From IMG/VR virus record IMGVR_UViG_3300035665_003403, positions 62,001 through 126,000 of that record: a stretch of DNA of 64,000 nucleotides; one strand, given 5' to 3'. Positions 9,965 through 47,675 of the stretch are shown here, one piece after another. Below the pieces are notes generated by a model. That model had not been told where the DNA came from and ran no database searches. It was given only the letters and a program-made list of their open reading frames with translations. The DNA comes from a virus. The position numbers were made by a program, and so were the translations under genes. The stretch's first letter is position 1, and the number at the start of each line of letters is the position of its first letter.

Positions 9965-12037
9965 TTAATACCTAACTTGAGTATACTCACATTTACCGTA
10001 CCAATTAATATCCGCTGTATTTAAACCAGTTACATTAACAACAATAGCTTCGTTAGGTACATCAACTGATATTGCAGCTGAGGTTGCAGCCAATGAAGCA
10101 TCACCATGAGTTGATGATAGAGCTGTACTACCAACTAATGATACTGTACCAGCAACATTCTTAACTAAACAATTACCTCTCCATTCTTTAGCATCACCAT
10201 TTGCCACATCAACACACACAATAGTAATGTTAATAAAATAAGTGTGTCCCGTATCAATTGTGAATCTAGCATATGTGCTATCAATATACATTTCTGTTTG
10301 AACATTATTTGTTGTTGCAGTATATAATGGAATAATACCATATTGACCACCATCTAAATTTAAAACATAAGCACCATTACTTCTAGCCCACTCATAATTA
10401 TGTGTGGCTGTTGCATAACCACCAGCATGAGAATAATCAGCATTAGCGGTACCACCATTTTCAGCATGACTACACAAACCATAAGCCTGACCACTACCCT
10501 CAGCATGTGAATTAATACCACCAGCAATACTAATACCTTCAGCATGTGAATAATCACCAGATGCTGTTGACCTACTACCTTCAGCATGTGAATATAATCC
10601 AGAAGCTAAAGTTAAAGAACCCTCTGAATGGGAAGCAACACCAGAAGCTAAAGTTAAATAACCCTCTGAATGAGAAGCAACTCCATTTGCAGTCGTACCA
10701 CTTCCCTCAGAGTGTGAAGCATCACCAATTGATGAATTAAATGAACCCTCAGCGTGAGAGCAATTTCCACCACCAGTGTTATAAGAACCTTCAACATGAG
10801 ATGTTACACCAGTTGAATAATTATTTTGTCCTTCAACATGAGAATAATTACCAGAAGATAAATTTTGACCACCCTCAGCATGGGATGCAAACCCAGAAGC
10901 TGTATTTTGACTCCCTTCAGCATGTGAATAACTACCACTAGCTGTGGTGTTAGTACCTTCAGCGTGTGAATTTAACCCAGAAGCAATATTAGATTGACCC
11001 TCACTATGCGCTGCCAAACCACTAGCTGTTGTCCTAAATCCTTCACTATGGGAATATAAACCAACGGACGTTGAATAAGAACCTTCAGCATGTGATGAAG
11101 TTCCACTAGCTGTAGTAAAACTACCCTCAGCATGTGAAAAATCACCTAAAGATACTGTTTTACCACCCTCAGCATGAGAACCATTACCGTTAGCAGTTGT
11201 ACCACTACCCTCAGCTAAACTATAATCACCAGTAGCAGCTATTCCGCTATTATTTTTAGCCTTAACAGAATGAGTTCCAGAATTACCACTAGTCCAATAC
11301 GTTATAGCACTTAATGCAAACGTACCACCAGTATTATTTCTAAAAGTAGAAACATCGTTAAATTGATTATAAGTTGCACCAGTTACAAAAACATCAAAAC
11401 AACATCCACTTGAACTACCACTTGTAGTACCTGTGTTTGGTGACCAGTACCCTAAACCTTCTGGTGTCAAACAGGTCCATACATAACCAACAGTTGGGCT
11501 ATCACTAATAATTAATCTATTTGTCCTAGTAATACCAGAAACATCCACCCAAATAGTTCTTCCAGTAAAATCTAATGTATTAGCTGATAAAAATTGAACA
11601 ACACTCGAAGTAACACTACCAGTGTATGCTCCACCACCAACATCAACAATTTGAACCACACTAATATCAAAATTAACACCAGAATAAGTTAACACAACAT
11701 TATTATCATCAATAACCGTTGTTGTATTAGATGTAAATATAATACTAGTATTTTGAGTAATACCACTATTTGATGGTGTCAACGCTGATAAAACACTATT
11801 ACCTAATCCCATCCTAGCGTCAAACCAACTATAAACAGTTGTTCCAGTATTACCAGAAAATGTTGAAACATATAAAGTATATTCTTCAGTAACACCAGAT
11901 GAAATAGTAGATGGACCACTAGGTAACAAATTAAAAGGCTGACCAAATATAGTACCACCAGATAATTCAGTAAATGTCTCAATTCTCTGTTTTATTTGTC
12001 TATTATCCGAATAATCTAATTTAGTTATGAATCCCAT
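9965..12037 (-). CDS. Trimeric tail fibre with YadA-head (SHAEG) repeats
   Basis: This gene encodes about 690 residues from the ATG at 12037 (MGFITKLDYSDNRQ). An upstream in-frame ATG at 12223 would run through the divergent gene at 12087 and is less likely. After a beta-rich N-terminus come about 20 tandem units of roughly 14 residues with the core SH(A/S)EG preceded by (T)ASG, the left-handed beta-roll of YadA-type trimeric adhesins. A YEWARSNG junction leads to a C-terminal domain ending EYTQVRY, probably the receptor-binding tip. An ATATTTATA box lies at 12049..12057. The protein is expected in the virion as a trimer. Confidence 0.85.
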   Translation of the reverse strand: MGFITKLDYSDNRQIKQRIETFTELSGGTIFGQPFNLLPSGPSTISSGVTEEYTLYVSTFSGNTGTTVYSWFDARMGLGNSVLSALTPSNSGITQNTSIIFTSNTTTVIDDNNVVLTYSGVNFDISVVQIVDVGGGAYTGSVTSSVVQFLSANTLDFTGRTIWVDVSGITRTNRLIISDSPTVGYVWTCLTPEGLGYWSPNTGTTSGSSSGCCFDVFVTGATYNQFNDVSTFRNNTGGTFALSAITYWTSGNSGTHSVKAKNNSGIAATGDYSLAEGSGTTANGNGSHAEGGKTVSLGDFSHAEGSFTTASGTSSHAEGSYSTSVGLYSHSEGFRTTASGLAAHSEGQSNIASGLNSHAEGTNTTASGSYSHAEGSQNTASGFASHAEGGQNLSSGNYSHVEGQNNYSTGVTSHVEGSYNTGGGNCSHAEGSFNSSIGDASHSEGSGTTANGVASHSEGYLTLASGVASHSEGSLTLASGLYSHAEGSRSTASGDYSHAEGISIAGGINSHAEGSGQAYGLCSHAENGGTANADYSHAGGYATATHNYEWARSNGAYVLNLDGGQYGIIPLYTATTNNVQTEMYIDSTYARFTIDTGHTYFINITIVCVDVANGDAKEWRGNCLVKNVAGTVSLVGSTALSSTHGDASLAATSAAISVDVPNEAIVVNVTGLNTADINWYGKCEYTQVRY

Positions 12038-12048
12038 TTGATTTTTAT

Positions 12049-12057
12049 TATAAATAT
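12049..12057 (-). promoter_or_regulatory. Late-type promoter box (ATATTTATA)
   Basis: On the minus strand ATATTTATA lies 11 bases before the fibre ATG at 12037. A second box on the opposite strand (12072..12080) serves the divergent gene; together they define a divergent late promoter pair and support the 12037 start. Confidence 0.55.
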
Positions 12058-12071
12058 TCTGATTTTTAGTT

Positions 12072-12080
12072 ATATTTATA
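12072..12080 (+). promoter_or_regulatory. Late-type promoter box (ATATTTATA)
   Basis: ATATTTATA ends six bases before the ATG at 12087. If it is a -10 element, the message would be almost leaderless. Confidence 0.5.
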
Positions 12081-12086
12081 TATTGT

Positions 12087-12509
12087 ATGATAATCAAAAA
12101 AAAAATATTTGAAAATATTGATATAACTGAGCTGGTTAATGCTGATGGTGGTATTATTAGTGGTGATAGAAATGCTGTTTCTAATTCCGAAATAGAAACT
12201 GGACCTGTTGATAAATCATTCAATGATAATTCAGATTATGAAAAAGGTATTTCAACAACAACAGATAGAGCATCAAGATATAGACAAGATTTACCTTGGT
12301 TAAATTCATATTATTCAGGTCAAAGCCCTTTGACTAAACAAACAATGGAAGAAACCATAAATGATTTGGTAAAAAAATCAAATAAAAAGGATGGTGAATT
12401 TGTTGATAAAAATAGTAACAACATAAAAAAAGTTACCAATTATATTGAAAACATTGATTTGACTGATGATGAAATACAAGCAATTAAGAAATATTTAGAT
12501 GAATTATAA
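12087..12509 (+). CDS. Uncharacterised phage protein, first of a five-gene operon
   Basis: This is a 140-residue acidic protein that I do not recognise. It starts MIIKKKIFENIDITELV, has a polar middle (RASRYRQDLPWLNSYYSGQS) and ends in two predicted helices (ITELDDEIQAIKKYL-like). The stop codon overlaps the ATG of the next gene (TAATG), so it is translationally coupled. A late-type box precedes it and it runs divergently from the fibre gene, so a structural or assembly role is possible but not shown. Confidence 0.65.
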   Translation: MIIKKKIFENIDITELVNADGGIISGDRNAVSNSEIETGPVDKSFNDNSDYEKGISTTTDRASRYRQDLPWLNSYYSGQSPLTKQTMEETINDLVKKSNKKDGEFVDKNSNNIKKVTNYIENIDLTDDEIQAIKKYLDEL

Positions 12510-14372: not shown

Positions 14373-14475
14373 ATCTAAACTTTACTTAGATAAAAAATAT
14401 GATTATAATTGTTTAGTAATTTGGGAATCAGATTATAAAAAAATAAAGATAAAATAATAAAATTAATTAAAGATT

Positions 14476-15738
14476 ATGGAGAACCAACAAAATATGGCCC
14501 CAGACAGTCGTAAATTTCGCATTCTTGTAGTGCCTAGCGACAGGTCTGGGGTCAGCTGAAGCTTTTTTAGAAGTACAATACCTCATATGTATCTTGAAGA
14601 AAAATATCCTGACTTATTTTCAATAGATATTGATTACGAACCAGACCTTTCAAACGATAATTTCTTAAAGCAATATGATTTGATTCATTATCATAGAACA
14701 TTAGGTTCTTATGAAACTATGGAAGATACTCTAAGGAGATTAAAATCATTTAATATCCCATCAATTATGGATATTGATGACCATTGGGCACCTGGCCAAC
14801 ATCACCCAGCATATTTAGTTATCAAGAATAATCAATTAGATAAGAAGATATTGAATAATGTCAAGTTGGCTGATAACATCACCACAACAACACCATTGTT
14901 TGCTGCTGAGATTAGCAAGGTAAATAAGAATGTATTCGTGTTACCCAATGCGATTAATCAAAATGAATCTCAGTTTATTCCATCACCAGAACAATCCAAT
15001 AGAATTAGATTTGGGTTCATTGGTGGAAGTTCCCATTTGCATGACCTAAAAATATTAAATGGTCTTGTAAATAAGCTTAAATCAGAAGGTTACATGGATA
15101 AAATACAGTTTGTATTGTGTGGTTATGATTTAAGAGGCAACATGACTGTTATAGATGAGAAGACTGGAACACAAACCCAACGTCCAATTAAACCAACTGA
15201 AAGTGTTTGGTACGAATACGAAAAAATATTCACTGACAATTATTCAACTGTAAGTCCAGAGTACAAAGAGTTTTTACTTAAATTCAAAAATGAGGAATAC
15301 CCTAACGTTGCTAACGAACCTTATAGAAGAGTTTGGACTAAGCCAATTACATCATATGCTACTGGTTATAATTTATTTGATGTTTCATTGGTACCATTAG
15401 AAGAAAATAATTTTAATTATGTAAAATCTCAATTAAAATGTGTTGAAGCTGGATTTCATAAAAAAGCTATAGTTGCTCAAAATTATGGTCCATATACAAT
15501 TGATTTAAAAAACATAATTATGTTTGGTGGTGAAATTGATAAAACTGGTAATGCGATATTGATTGATACCAAGAAAAACCATAAAGATTGGTTTACGACA
15601 ATAAAGAAATTAGTCAATAATCCAGAATTGATTAAGATTATGGGTGAAAATCTACATAAAGACATTACATCTAAATATTCTTTAGATGCTGTATCAGAAA
15701 GTAGAAAAGACTTATATTTAAACCTTATTAACAAATGA
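14476..15738 (+). CDS. Glycosyltransferase (GT-B fold) with an in-frame UGA and possible 6-nt translational hop
   Basis: From ATG 14476 the frame reads MENQQNMAPDSRKFRILVVP, then SDRSGVS, then TGA (14557..14559), then SFFRSTIPHMYLEE and onward without interruption to 15738. The uninterrupted part from ATG 14587 is 383 residues. The body has IMDIDDHWAPGQHHP, VFVLPNAINQN, GFIGGSSHLHD and VKSQLKCVEAGFHKKAIV, typical of GT4-type phage glycosyltransferases. In such enzymes the first strand usually reads like ILVVPSD.SGV..FRS..PH, so the codons before the stop belong to the protein. TGA is flanked by identical AGC codons; skipping from one to the other gives SGVSFFRST, the expected length. Alternatives are readthrough, restart at 14587, or a disabled gene. 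UGA is a normal stop elsewhere here. Confidence 0.8.
14495..14568 (+). promoter_or_regulatory. GC-rich stem-loop and candidate recoding site (AGC-UGA-AGC)
   Basis: UGGCCCCAGAC (14495..14505) pairs with GUCUGGGGUCA (14544..14554), with an inner GUCG/CGAC helix. The 3' arm ends on the first base of the AGC codon before the UGA. AGC-UGAA-GCU (14554..14563) can form a small hairpin with the stop in its loop, followed by six U. In 14497..14562 I count 36 G or C of 66, and rare codons such as CGC, GTG and GGG, unlike the AT-rich neighbours. It could also act as a transcription attenuator. Confidence 0.7.
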
Positions 15739-16581: not shown

Positions 16582-17085
16582 ATGGGAATCTTAGATTTAT
16601 TAAAATTTGGTGACTTGGATACTTTGACTGAAAAACTCAAAGTGAAGTTCAAAGTTAAGAATGTTTCGAATAATCCGATACCCAAATACGAATCAAATGG
16701 TGCCTCAGGTTTTGATATTAGAGCATTCATTGATGAACCAATTGTGTTAGAACCACAATCTTATGGTACAATACCAACTGGATTATATTTTGATATACCA
16801 GCTAATTTTGAGTTGCAGCTTCGTCCTAGAAGTGGATTAGCATCTAAATTTGGGGTTACCGTATTAAATTCACCAGCAACTATCGATAGTGACTACATTG
16901 GCCAAGTAATGGTAATCCTGATTAATCATGGTAAAGAACCATTTACAATAAATTCTGGGGATAGAATTGCTCAAGGTGTATTTGCTCCATCACCAACCAA
17001 TATGTTTGATATCGTGTCAGTTAAAGAAATAAATAAAATAACTGATAGGGGTGAAAACGGATTAGGAAGCACTGGAATAAAATAA
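16582..17085 (+). CDS. dut: dUTP diphosphatase
   Basis: This 167-residue enzyme carries trimeric dUTPase motifs: ASGFDIRA (motif 1), RPRSGLA (2), TIDSDYIGQVMVILIN (3, uracil-binding region), GDRIAQGVF (4) and RGENGLGSTG (5, the P-loop-like tail). It hydrolyses dUTP to dUMP and diphosphate, keeping uracil out of DNA and feeding dTMP synthesis. About 20 extra N-terminal residues precede the core. It is co-transcribed with the HD-like gene. Confidence 0.95.
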   Translation: MGILDLLKFGDLDTLTEKLKVKFKVKNVSNNPIPKYESNGASGFDIRAFIDEPIVLEPQSYGTIPTGLYFDIPANFELQLRPRSGLASKFGVTVLNSPATIDSDYIGQVMVILINHGKEPFTINSGDRIAQGVFAPSPTNMFDIVSVKEINKITDRGENGLGSTGIK

Positions 17086-17539: not shown

Positions 17540-17755
17540 ATGAAAACTAAAATAACTATAGATTTTGATAGTGAAAGAGATAATCAAATAATTTTAATGA
17601 AAGAACCCAGCGATGAAAAACCAGATTTGGTTGCTGACATTATTGGCACATGTGCTGCGTTATGTGAGCTAATTGATTATGGTTCCACAAATAAAATAGT
17701 AGATAAAGAGGGTTCAATATTAGCTGCTATCAAAAGTCTTAACCAATTAAGATAA
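17540..17755 (+). CDS. Uncharacterised small protein
   Basis: The ATG at 17540 (MKTKITIDFDSERDNQIILM) gives 71 residues and is preferred to an upstream in-frame codon at 17489 that would overlap the antisense gene. The N-terminal strand and following helices look like a small alpha/beta protein. Its stop overlaps the ATG of the 2H phosphoesterase gene, so they are coupled. Confidence 0.6.
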   Translation: MKTKITIDFDSERDNQIILMKEPSDEKPDLVADIIGTCAALCELIDYGSTNKIVDKEGSILAAIKSLNQLR

Positions 17756-18315
17756 TGTTTAAAAAAATAATAAAAGAAAAGTTAAATTCATTTTTAATGG
17801 AAGGTCATAAACGAGAATTTGGTTGTGTCATGCTAGATATTGATGTTGATAAAACCAAATGGAATAAATTAATTGAATCAATTGATGAATCTGATTTATA
17901 TGAGGGTGAATCAAAAAAAGATAAGGGTGAATTTGGTGTTGAAAAACAACAACATATAACTATATTATTTGGGCTGCATTCCTCAGTAAAGGATTCTGAA
18001 GTCAATGAAATATTGGATAAGATTGAAACAATTGATTTTGATTTAACGAAGATTTCTATATTTGAAACAGATGAATTTGATGTTTTAAAATATGACGTTG
18101 TTAGTTCAGATTTGAAAAAATGGAATAAAGAATTATCTAAATTAGATAACACAAATGAATTTGATTACCACCCACATGCAACTATAGCTTATTTAAAAAA
18201 GGGAAGTGGTAAAAAATATATTCAGACTTTAAAAATGGAAGCCAAACCAGAAAGATTACACTACAGTAAAACAGATGGTACCGATAAATTTTACCCAATA
18301 AAAAAACATGAATAA
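17755..18315 (+). CDS. 2H phosphoesterase (2'-5' RNA ligase/cyclic phosphodiesterase fold), candidate anti-CBASS enzyme
   Basis: This is a 186-residue protein with the two signature HxT motifs: HIT at residues 67-69 in QQHITILFGLH and HAT at 141-143 in YHPHATIAYLKKG, at normal spacing. 2H enzymes act on 2',3' or 2',5' phosphodiester bonds in RNA or cyclic nucleotides. Phage members include T4 Acb1, which degrades CBASS cyclic oligonucleotide signals; others repair RNA. The sequence alone does not separate these. It sits among small early-type genes and overlaps the thioesterase gene by eight bases. Confidence 0.85.
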   Translation: MFKKIIKEKLNSFLMEGHKREFGCVMLDIDVDKTKWNKLIESIDESDLYEGESKKDKGEFGVEKQQHITILFGLHSSVKDSEVNEILDKIETIDFDLTKISIFETDEFDVLKYDVVSSDLKKWNKELSKLDNTNEFDYHPHATIAYLKKGSGKKYIQTLKMEAKPERLHYSKTDGTDKFYPIKKHE

Positions 18316-18712
18316 AGAAACTGCAACACATAGCTTCACTGTATTTCCAAATGATTTAAATTATTTTGGGACACTATATGGTGGTACACTTATGTCACAC
18401 ATGGATTTAGCAGGTGTTCAAGTTGTTAGACGAGCAACTTATGGTACTGGTGCTGATGGTTGTGTAACTGCATCAGTGGATAAGATTGACTTTCATAGAC
18501 CAGCATTCTTAGGTGATTTAATTGTGTTGGTTGCCACCATAAAAACAATTGGTAAGTCATCTATCCAAGTACAAATTAAGGTTACTAGAGAAAGTACAAT
18601 TGGTGAAACAGAAGAGATTTGTACAGCCAACTTTACTTTTGTAACAATGAAAGATAAAAAACCATTTAAACATAATTTAACATTTGAAAAATTAACCAAT
18701 GGAGAACTTTGA
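18308..18712 (+). CDS. Acyl-CoA thioesterase, hotdog fold (YciA/BACH type)
   Basis: This is a 134-residue single-hotdog protein with NDLNYFGTLYGGTLMSHMDL in the first helix region and TASVDKIDFHRPAFLGDLI, which match the acyl-CoA hydrolase pattern (N and G before the long helix, Asp in MDLAG, 'FxxPxxxGD'). It would hydrolyse acyl-CoA to fatty acid and CoA in the cytoplasm, probably as a hexamer. Such enzymes are uncommon in phages; a role in redirecting host lipid metabolism is inference. Confidence 0.85.
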   Translation: MNKETATHSFTVFPNDLNYFGTLYGGTLMSHMDLAGVQVVRRATYGTGADGCVTASVDKIDFHRPAFLGDLIVLVATIKTIGKSSIQVQIKVTRESTIGETEEICTANFTFVTMKDKKPFKHNLTFEKLTNGEL

Positions 18713-18872
18713 AAGGAAAACATTTGAAGAGTTATATGAAAACTATATTCATGACAGAACTTATTTCACTCCAACAATGGATGATATAATTAAATTAAAT
18801 ATTGTTTTTGAAAACATAGACAAATTCACAGTACAACAAATATCAGATTTTTTTGAATCAAATGGAAAATAA
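18699..18872 (+). CDS. Small acidic protein (57 aa)
   Basis: ATG at 18699 gives MENFERKTFEELYENYIHDR and ends in FFESNGK, 57 residues. It overlaps the thioesterase stop by 14 bases and the SET-domain gene start by 11, filling the only gap in this operon. Unknown function; mostly helical and acidic. Confidence 0.6.
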   Translation: MENFERKTFEELYENYIHDRTYFTPTMDDIIKLNIVFENIDKFTVQQISDFFESNGK

Positions 18873-19170
18873 ATATTACAAACCACTTCCTAGTTATTTG
18901 ACAATAAAACCATCCCCAATTGAAGGGTTAGGTTTATTTGCAACAGAATTTATACCAAACGGTAAAGTTTTCGGGATAACCCATGTCAAAGATAAAAGAT
19001 TTCCAGATGGATATATTAGGACAGCCTTAGGGTCGTTTTTTAATCATAGTGAAAACCCCAATTGTAAATTAATTCATACTAGAGATTTTATCCTTATAGA
19101 ATCAATAATGGATATTCAACCATCTGAGGAAATTACTGCTCTATATTCTTTATACGACCCAACTAAATAA
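18862..19170 (+). CDS. SET-domain protein (lysine methyltransferase fold)
   Basis: From the ATG at 18862 (a TTG at 18853 is possible) this gives 102 residues: IKPSPIEGLGLFATEFIPNG at the N-terminus, FFNHSENPNCKL in the middle and EEITALYSLY at the C-terminus. These match the SET core (GxG, NHSxxPN, ELxxxY). SET enzymes transfer methyl from S-adenosylmethionine to lysines. It is minimal, lacking pre- and post-SET modules, like viral SET proteins. The target (host ribosome, RNA polymerase or a phage protein) cannot be told. Confidence 0.85.
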   Translation: MENKYYKPLPSYLTIKPSPIEGLGLFATEFIPNGKVFGITHVKDKRFPDGYIRTALGSFFNHSENPNCKLIHTRDFILIESIMDIQPSEEITALYSLYDPTK

Positions 19171-45980: not shown

Positions 45981-47675
45981 TTAATCAACAATAAACTCAT
46001 ATTTAAATAATCCACAATCCCATATCCTATCATAACCTAATTCGGTCATCAATTGCTTCTCAGACTTACTAAAATCCAAATGAGGAAACTTCTTTTTTAA
46101 AGAATTCTTCCCAAATCCAAATTTATGTAGTCTCTTGGTTCTAGATATACTAGAATTGAAATACCTATAATCTGGACCTAATATTTTAACACATTTAAAC
46201 CCAATCGATAAATACATGTTTTTATTTCCATCAATCCAACGCACATCACCAAATGATATAATTTTTTCTGGTTGATATAGTTTTATGAAATGCTTCATTA
46301 ATTTATTAGCTATACCAGTAATCTTATATTCATTCGTTGTAGCGAATCTACTCAAATCATAAACACCATCTACCTTACCAGAATTCATTCCTCTAACACC
46401 ATTAAATGTCATAATAGCAACTAATTTATTATCAAAGAAAGCACCTAAACATATATTGGTCGCATCATTACCCTGGATATGGTATTTCTTTAAAAATTCC
46501 TTCTTAGATTCTAAATCAACTTCCCTAATATCACATTTCCTAGCACCTATATTTTTATTCTTATTCACCCCAAGTATATAGTCTATTTTATTAAGCACCA
46601 ACTCTCTATTATTAACCCATTCATCTTCAAATATATGAATTAATCGATACCCAATACTATTCATTAGCTTTGTTTTTGTTAGATGAAATTGCCTATCCTT
46701 ACCAAATTTTTCACTATGATAATACAATCCATTATATTCTATACCTAATTTTAGGTCATCTATTAATATATCAATCTCAACCCCTGATAATAATTTTTTA
46801 TCATTCATCTTAACAGTAAATCCCAATTCGGCAATATGATTATAAATTTCTATTTGAGCTTTACTGGAAAATACGTTTTCATGTAATCTTAACCCATTAT
46901 CATATCTAACCCTTAACTCATCTTTGTATCTATTTGAAAGAATCTTATCATTAGGATACTTTATCCTATATTCAAATAATGTAATACCATGTTTATTCAA
47001 ATGCTTAGCACCCAAATATCTAAGTTTTTTACCACAAATATTACAAATAACGTGATTATCCTCTAACAACAAATCCTTATTCTTTATATAATTCTTATGA
47101 AATACAATATCCTCTGGGAACCTAACCAAATAATCATTTAAACCAATCTCATGTTTAATTAAATGATTCTCAAAACACCCAGTCCTATTATCAACATCAC
47201 TCGTAACCCAATTACATAATTTACATTTCCTAGTCAAGGTCTCTTCAACTTCAATTATATCAAAATATTCCTCAAACCATTTTTTACCATACTCTAACTC
47301 ATACTTCTTTCGTTGATATGTGTTGTTTGGTATGGGTACATCACCATATGTCTTTATAATATGATTAGTTAAAACCCCAGATAAATTATTTGGGTCGTCA
47401 AACTCTAATTTTGTTTGCTTACAAACTGCAATGAATTTTTTACCATCACTACCAATATATTTGTTGGTCTTACTTTTTTCTATAATAACACTATTACCAT
47501 CCTTGACTTGACCACCACGCTTTTTAATTGATATAAGGTTATCATTTAATATTTTGGTTATCTTCTTATGCCCCACACTAAATCTCTTTCCTAACTCATG
47601 TGTGCTGATATTTTCTGATTGATATAATTTAATGATGGTATTTTCATCGTCCTTGGTTAATATTGTTTTACTCAT
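45981..47675 (-). CDS. Vsr-like homing endonuclease with zinc fingers and a GNAT-like C-terminus
   Basis: This is a 564-residue multidomain protein. A helix-turn-helix (HELGKRFSVGHKKITKILND) leads; then two MucR-like zinc-finger segments, CKLCNW...H...H near 151-175 and CNICGKKLRYLGAKHLNKHG near 211-230; then a Vsr/EDxHD-type nuclease (EIDILIDDLKLGIEYNGLYY HSE near 300-322, ending LIHIFEDEW); and finally a GNAT-like domain (LGAFFDNKLVAIMTFNGVRG, LSRFATTNEYKITGIANKLM). Similar nucleases, such as I-Bth0305I, are homing enzymes. It lies beside the capsid gene, a typical site. Confidence 0.85.
   Translation of the reverse strand: MSKTILTKDDENTIIKLYQSENISTHELGKRFSVGHKKITKILNDNLISIKKRGGQVKDGNSVIIEKSKTNKYIGSDGKKFIAVCKQTKLEFDDPNNLSGVLTNHIIKTYGDVPIPNNTYQRKKYELEYGKKWFEEYFDIIEVEETLTRKCKLCNWVTSDVDNRTGCFENHLIKHEIGLNDYLVRFPEDIVFHKNYIKNKDLLLEDNHVICNICGKKLRYLGAKHLNKHGITLFEYRIKYPNDKILSNRYKDELRVRYDNGLRLHENVFSSKAQIEIYNHIAELGFTVKMNDKKLLSGVEIDILIDDLKLGIEYNGLYYHSEKFGKDRQFHLTKTKLMNSIGYRLIHIFEDEWVNNRELVLNKIDYILGVNKNKNIGARKCDIREVDLESKKEFLKKYHIQGNDATNICLGAFFDNKLVAIMTFNGVRGMNSGKVDGVYDLSRFATTNEYKITGIANKLMKHFIKLYQPEKIISFGDVRWIDGNKNMYLSIGFKCVKILGPDYRYFNSSISRTKRLHKFGFGKNSLKKKFPHLDFSKSEKQLMTELGYDRIWDCGLFKYEFIVD

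Follow-up and report, generated by a model that had tools for sequence, protein, structure and literature searches.

Proposed short-range translational bypass in a family of phage glycosyltransferase genes adjoined by homing endonucleases

A glycosyltransferase gene split by a stop codon

The window, a stretch of 64,000 nucleotides, corresponds to positions 62001-126000 of a 148,824-base viral contig whose proteins match the T4-type head, portal, protease, and terminase families. On its plus strand, a glycosyltransferase gene is divided in two by a UGA. ORF1 (14476-14556; 27 codons, MENQQNMAPDSRKFRILVVPSDRSGVS) encodes an N-terminal extension and beta-strand 1 of the enzyme, and it ends in SDRSGVS at an AGC serine codon (14554-14556) which comparison with interrupted homologues identifies as the probable take-off site. 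The stop (14557-14559), placed by the sequence and by the same homologues, makes up a 3-nt coding gap. It is followed by a second AGC serine codon (14560-14562), the putative landing site, which we propose is bypassed and not decoded. After this AGC, TTT TTT AGA continues in the same frame as ORF2 (14563-15738), whose 391 codons, closed by a TGA at 15736-15738, provide the rest of a GT-B-fold glycosyltransferase conserved with uninterrupted homologues. ORF2 was assigned to this function by phrog_7162, and no Pfam model matched the glycosyltransferase. Immediately upstream, positions 14398-14475 of the plus strand encode the C-terminal remnant of a homing endonuclease (YDYNCLVIWESDYKKIKIK, then stops). 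This remnant matches positions 264-301 of a profile built from 19 endonucleases of interrupted relatives (hmmsearch E 8e-5), and the remainder of the gene is missing from the window.

At 60-65% protein identity, the nearest relatives without the interruption have VVPSDRTGVSYFRSTxPH or a close variant. Since the junction is SDRTGVS-YFRST in these homologues, the window has an excess of exactly 6 nt, either TGAAGC or AGCTGA. A preliminary description of this DNA had recognized a glycosyltransferase frame split by UGA between identical AGC codons, had proposed that a hop of six nucleotides restores the spacing of the family, and had placed a stem-loop just before the take-off codon. All three points are borne out: aligned homologues show the six bases to be absent in uninterrupted relatives, the stop, hairpin, and matched codons are kept in dozens of interrupted ones, and the stem-loop is a stable fold in the window and in every interrupted relative. 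The segment had also been described as having 36 G+C in 66 and codons rare elsewhere. The codons are indeed rare, the 21 at 14494-14556 being the rarest among 43,513 coding windows of the genome, while the G+C count should be 34-35 in 66. Two lesser features did not survive the comparison, as neither a small AGC-UGAA-GCU hairpin at the stop nor a U run after it is conserved in relatives that share the stop position. A search for a relative identical around the window hop site gave zero matches.

A family with variable gaps and matched codons

In IMG/VR, another 44 distinct sequences are interrupted by a stop at this position, giving 45 with the window, and the interrupted arrangement is shared by 66 loci in all. 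A profile search first returned relatives with the same stop position and a different gap. DNA patterns for PSDR[TS]GV[SG]-stop, with the downstream part left unconstrained, then yielded 56 contigs, nearly all with this glycosyltransferase gene, and the 45 sequences pool these pattern searches with the other searches. The gap measures 2 nt in four sequences, 3 nt in 23, 4 nt in three, 5 nt in five, 8 nt in five, 9 nt in two, 10 nt in two, and 41 nt in one. ORF2 is in frame with ORF1 in 25 members and out of frame in 20, and all three frames occur. When the gap and one codon are skipped, every member reads GV[SG]-[YFKHS][FY]RS, with a spacing identical to that of 111 uninterrupted homologues. 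The length of ORF1 is 26-29 codons in all interrupted homologues and mostly 16-20 in uninterrupted ones, and it may matter for the nascent chain; no nascent-peptide signal like that of gene 60 was recognized.

The codons on either side of the gap specify the same amino acid in 43 of the 45 members and have equal first two bases in 44, the exceptions being L154 (AGT to GGC) and L117 (AGC to AGA). Take-off codons are AGY or GGN. No serine landing codon is of the TCN type (0/10), while TCN is used in 22 of the 28 uninterrupted serine alleles (p 1.7e-5). The stop directly follows the take-off codon everywhere except in L198, where one sense codon lies between, and in the gap-2 members it is overlapped by the landing codon (AGT TG AGC). 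Three members thus fit a bypass imperfectly: L154, L117, and L198, the last with a 41-nt gap and a GCT before the stop. This long gap (L198, 1-4016) holds a strong hairpin (CCCCCACTC...AGGGTGGGGG) with GGT on both sides, and L198 may represent either a bypass over a long gap, nearer to the gene 60 type, or an allele in decay. The wobble base of the take-off codon is also linked to the stop, with GGC or AGC going with TGA (16/17) and GGT with TAA (20/24).

A scan of the loci then collected gave no convincing second case of matched codons plus hairpin in other genes; those that turned up in L124, which is GC-rich, seem fortuitous and were rejected. Among the cultured phages of INPHARED, only distant relatives were found, and LR756501 and phi92, the two inspected individually, lack the interruption.

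A hairpin abutting the take-off codon

In the window, the hairpin has its 5' arm at 14496-14511 (14496-14505 and 14507-14511) and its 3' arm at 14537-14553 (14537-14541 and 14544-14553), both on the plus strand, with 14496-14505 predicted to pair with 14544-14553 and 14507-14511 with 14537-14541, so that the 3' arm ends at the take-off codon. Its minimum free energy is -29.8 kcal/mol (z -3.7), and none of 200 shuffled sequences folds equally well. No other 72-nt segment of the 148.8-kb genome (step 6, both strands) folds as stably as the one that ends shortly after the stop. The second most stable fold, near contig position ~141253 and outside the window (AACTACCCAC...GTGGGTAGTT), looks like the terminal hairpin of an IS200/IS605-type element.

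In every interrupted sequence, the 75-nt stretch that runs up to take-off has a folding energy between -22.8 and -37.6 kcal/mol, with the 3' arm abutting the take-off codon or ending at it. The same region averages -9.1 kcal/mol in the 111 uninterrupted alleles, where the hairpin is absent. Synonymous reshuffling of the hairpin region gives z values from -3.3 to -8.3, so the fold is not forced by the amino acid sequence. The arms covary across 17 clusters: swapping them between members weakens pairing from -24.8 to -17.5 kcal/mol (permutation p 5e-5). The compensatory changes fall at third positions of Thr/Ser, Gly, and Val codons, with C-G, U-A, and G-C pairs at position -4 and several pair types at position -7. 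Because a MAFFT DNA alignment moves some 5' arms by one base, pairs were counted by script with anchored arms. Judging from this comparative evidence, the RNA structure of the hairpin is under selection.

An endonuclease gene upstream

An endonuclease gene or its remnant lies directly upstream of 33 of the 45 interrupted genes, compared with 6 of the 111 uninterrupted ones (p 7e-18). When L164 is set against L171, it appears as a gene of ~970 nt just before the glycosyltransferase of L164, matching NUMOD3 (Pfam) and the homing-endonuclease family phrog_3339, with a weak restriction-endonuclease-like match (MTES_1575, below cut-off). Relatives in cultured phages carry the annotation VSR endonuclease, and no relative with a known structure was found by sequence. 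The intact gene mostly ends 8-68 nt inside ORF1, an overlap that would explain the N-terminal extension. The best 80 IMG/VR copies of the endonuclease all precede this glycosyltransferase gene, interrupted in 49 cases and uninterrupted in 31, with 13 of the 80, classed as "other" by the script, assigned by hand from representative loci.

In a quick tree of ORF2, interrupted alleles are scattered and the interruption state changes at least 29 times, 19 changes being forced by well-supported branches. Downstream, the members of the pairs L033/L114 and L187/L126 share ~96% identity, and their differences lie in the N-terminal segment; in near-identical pairs like these, the difference is limited to the N-terminal cassette, and the endonuclease gene lies upstream in some. 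ORF1 is also more alike than ORF2, its DNA often being almost unchanged between members whose ORF2s diverge, as in L145/L163 (100% vs 78%). It is very likely that endonuclease and bypass form a mobile cassette which spreads horizontally, and the window would then hold a bypass that outlived its own endonuclease. The uninterrupted L051 looks like a cured allele, since it has the N-terminal extension, half of the stem, and an endonuclease remnant. L004, L006, and L007 also retain the extension without the interruption, and these four are likely relics of lost cassettes.

Distant members of the endonuclease family lie upstream of uninterrupted glycosyltransferases in L268, L274, L287, L290, L294-L300, L320, and L328. 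The residues near the hop site are often altered in these loci (VTPSD, VAPSD, VVIPSD, GCG), which possibly confers immunity in place of a bypass. The window has another homing endonuclease gene (45981-47675, minus strand; phrog_3339) adjoining the major head protein gene, and further endonuclease matches occur at contig positions 43615-44097 and 45952-46134.

Proposed bypass and competing explanations

We hold with strong confidence, from the comparison of these genes, that programmed translational bypass explains the interrupted family. After translating ORF1, the ribosome would come to a pause as the stop codon enters the A-site. The peptidyl-tRNA would then leave the take-off codon (AGY or GGN) while the mRNA moves by 5-13 nt, 6 in the window, until the same tRNA re-pairs at the matching landing codon and so ends the slide. 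Translation would resume at the codon after landing, giving one intact glycosyltransferase that reads ...SDRSGVS-FFRST... in the window. At take-off, the GC-rich hairpin would be melted inside the ribosome, and by refolding behind the P-site it could pull the mRNA and drive the forward move. This zipper idea, based on a refolding 5' stem-loop, was proposed for gene 60 (PMC5009743, PMC11194080), and we put the chances that the hairpin acts as the motor of the hop here at about even. The cassette itself would run from a NUMOD3/Vsr-like endonuclease gene into the overlapping ORF1, then to the hairpin, the stop, and the gap. By analogy with T4, the endonuclease would cut uninterrupted alleles close to the hop site, the cassette would owe its immunity to the interruption, and the bypass would keep the host gene working.

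Readthrough of the UGA, by a suppressor tRNA or otherwise, would give SGVS-X-SFFRST in the window, and it would suit the ORF2s that are in frame there and in the other gap-3 and gap-9 members. However, the gaps place ORF2 in all frames at a constant hop spacing, and this defeats both readthrough and a fixed frameshift, for which one mechanism would have to serve three frames. Under readthrough or selenocysteine insertion, ORF2 would always be in frame, and the 20 out-of-frame members depart from this. In L146 and L148 the ORF1 DNA is identical, and gaps of 9 nt and 8 nt, respectively, put the two intact ORF2s in different frames. Interrupted members also use all three stop codons, and the window has no tRNA gene. 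Readthrough is accordingly very unlikely. We give as little credence to two-part expression, in which ORF1 would be a leader peptide, the hairpin a translational or transcriptional control, and the enzyme would restart downstream, at ATG 14587 in the window. A methionine does occur within 9-14 codons of the landing site in the window and several relatives, but the first one of ORF2 comes only at codon 287 in L147 and L160, 266 in L148, and 196 in L153. A restart would also be expected to delete beta-strand 1 of the Rossmann domain, which ORF1 encodes in every member. Homologue L005 was modelled with a GT-B fold (mean pLDDT 86.6; best matches MshA, GlgM, and PglA), and there the predicted hop site is at the start of helix 1, directly after this strand.

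Removal of the gap from the RNA, by a minimal excision or by slippage of RNA polymerase, would leave the same protein, and a comparison of proteins is presumably blind to the difference between a hop and the loss of the same bases. Yet we know of no bacterial system that excises 5-13 nt from an mRNA, and the Rfam search of the window had zero matches and so gave no known intron family. Matched codons, an adjacent stop, and an upstream hairpin are instead features of bypassing (PMC5009743; PMC11194080), which leaves RNA-level removal highly improbable. It is scarcely credible, finally, that the enzyme has been inactivated by six inserted bases that include a stop, or that the assembly is wrong. 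In favour of such damage or error, the window comes from one metagenomic contig alone and retains no more than a remnant of the endonuclease, but the arrangement is common to 66 loci and 45 distinct sequences, the covariation of the hairpin could be selected only while the signal works, and the 148.8-kb genome has no second copy of the gene. ORF2 is also open to its stop in every member with the gene end covered. Its dN/dS is 0.04-0.13 in most interrupted pairs. This indicates constraint, but we accept it only in part as proof of function because the cassette moves and the history of ORF2 may have been partly uninterrupted.

Comparison with known hops

To our knowledge, efficient programmed bypassing in bacteria has had hardly any example besides T4 gene 60. 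The parallel with it drawn in the preliminary description is right, and it reaches further than had been seen because a homing-endonuclease gene adjoins: bypassing next to such a gene is also the working principle of gene 60 and mobA. The differences lie in the target (a topoisomerase for T4, a glycosyltransferase here), the gap (50 nt versus 2-10 nt), the codons (serine as well as glycine here), the nuclease (HNH for mobA, NUMOD3/Vsr-like here), and the distribution (one phage versus many). Unlike in gene 60, the hairpin abuts the take-off codon and the gap has no conserved take-off stem-loop; this stem-loop is a stimulator in gene 60, not part of the definition of a bypass. The new family is probably a widespread element of T4-like and related phages, in which a Vsr-like homing endonuclease travels with a self-contained short-range hop of 5-13 nt by Gly or Ser tRNAs, one that would be driven by refolding of the upstream hairpin, be largely indifferent to the gap, and have arisen independently of gene 60.

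Synthetic stop-hops in E. coli, in which matched codons flank a stop and nine nucleotides give one amino acid (Weiss 1987, as summarized in PMC5009743), have the same arrangement as the window, and other in-frame members match it too. Those were constructs, whereas the new family is natural and has a conserved hairpin as putative stimulator. In 2016, a review knew of no natural in-frame stop hopping, although short-distance counterparts had long been presumed (PMC5009743). The mitochondrial byp elements of Magnusiomyces are skipped blocks in many genes, that is, inserts corrected during translation, and they appear mobile like the new cassette, to go by the title of ref. 56 in PMC5009743. They are largely independent of mRNA context, however, and that review describes neither an adjacent endonuclease nor a required upstream hairpin (PMC5009743). 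In Corndog-type mycobacteriophages, an HNH gene lies upstream of a tape-measure gene without the usual start, and bypassing was suggested (PMC4351075). The endonuclease precedes the gene as in the new cassette, but non-standard initiation is equally possible, and the passages on this gene in PMC4351075 mention no hairpin with matched codons. No report of a glycosyltransferase bypass family was found in the open-licence literature of PubMed Central.

With 45 natural variants that cover gaps of nearly always 2-10 nt, all frames, two tRNA families, and a covarying hairpin, and with uninterrupted controls, the rules of take-off, driving force, and landing become directly testable. The combination of endonuclease and bypass would be a recurrent, mobile strategy by which a parasite gene settles in a useful gene yet spares it. 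Gene finders would take such glycosyltransferase genes for broken ones.

Other genes of the window

Three further regions of the window may be mentioned. On the minus strand, a 752-aa ORF (9965-12223) has repeated SHAEGxxTxASGxxSHAEG motifs like the head repeats of trimeric autotransporters, with no Pfam match. On the plus strand, 17755-18315 is a possible anti-defence gene, judging from weak matches to the anti-CBASS Acb1 and 2'-5' RNA ligase families that are below curated cut-offs. A small SET-domain protein is encoded at 18853-19170 (plus strand), adjoining a 4HBT thioesterase (18308-18712), and a dUTPase (16582-17085) lies nearby.
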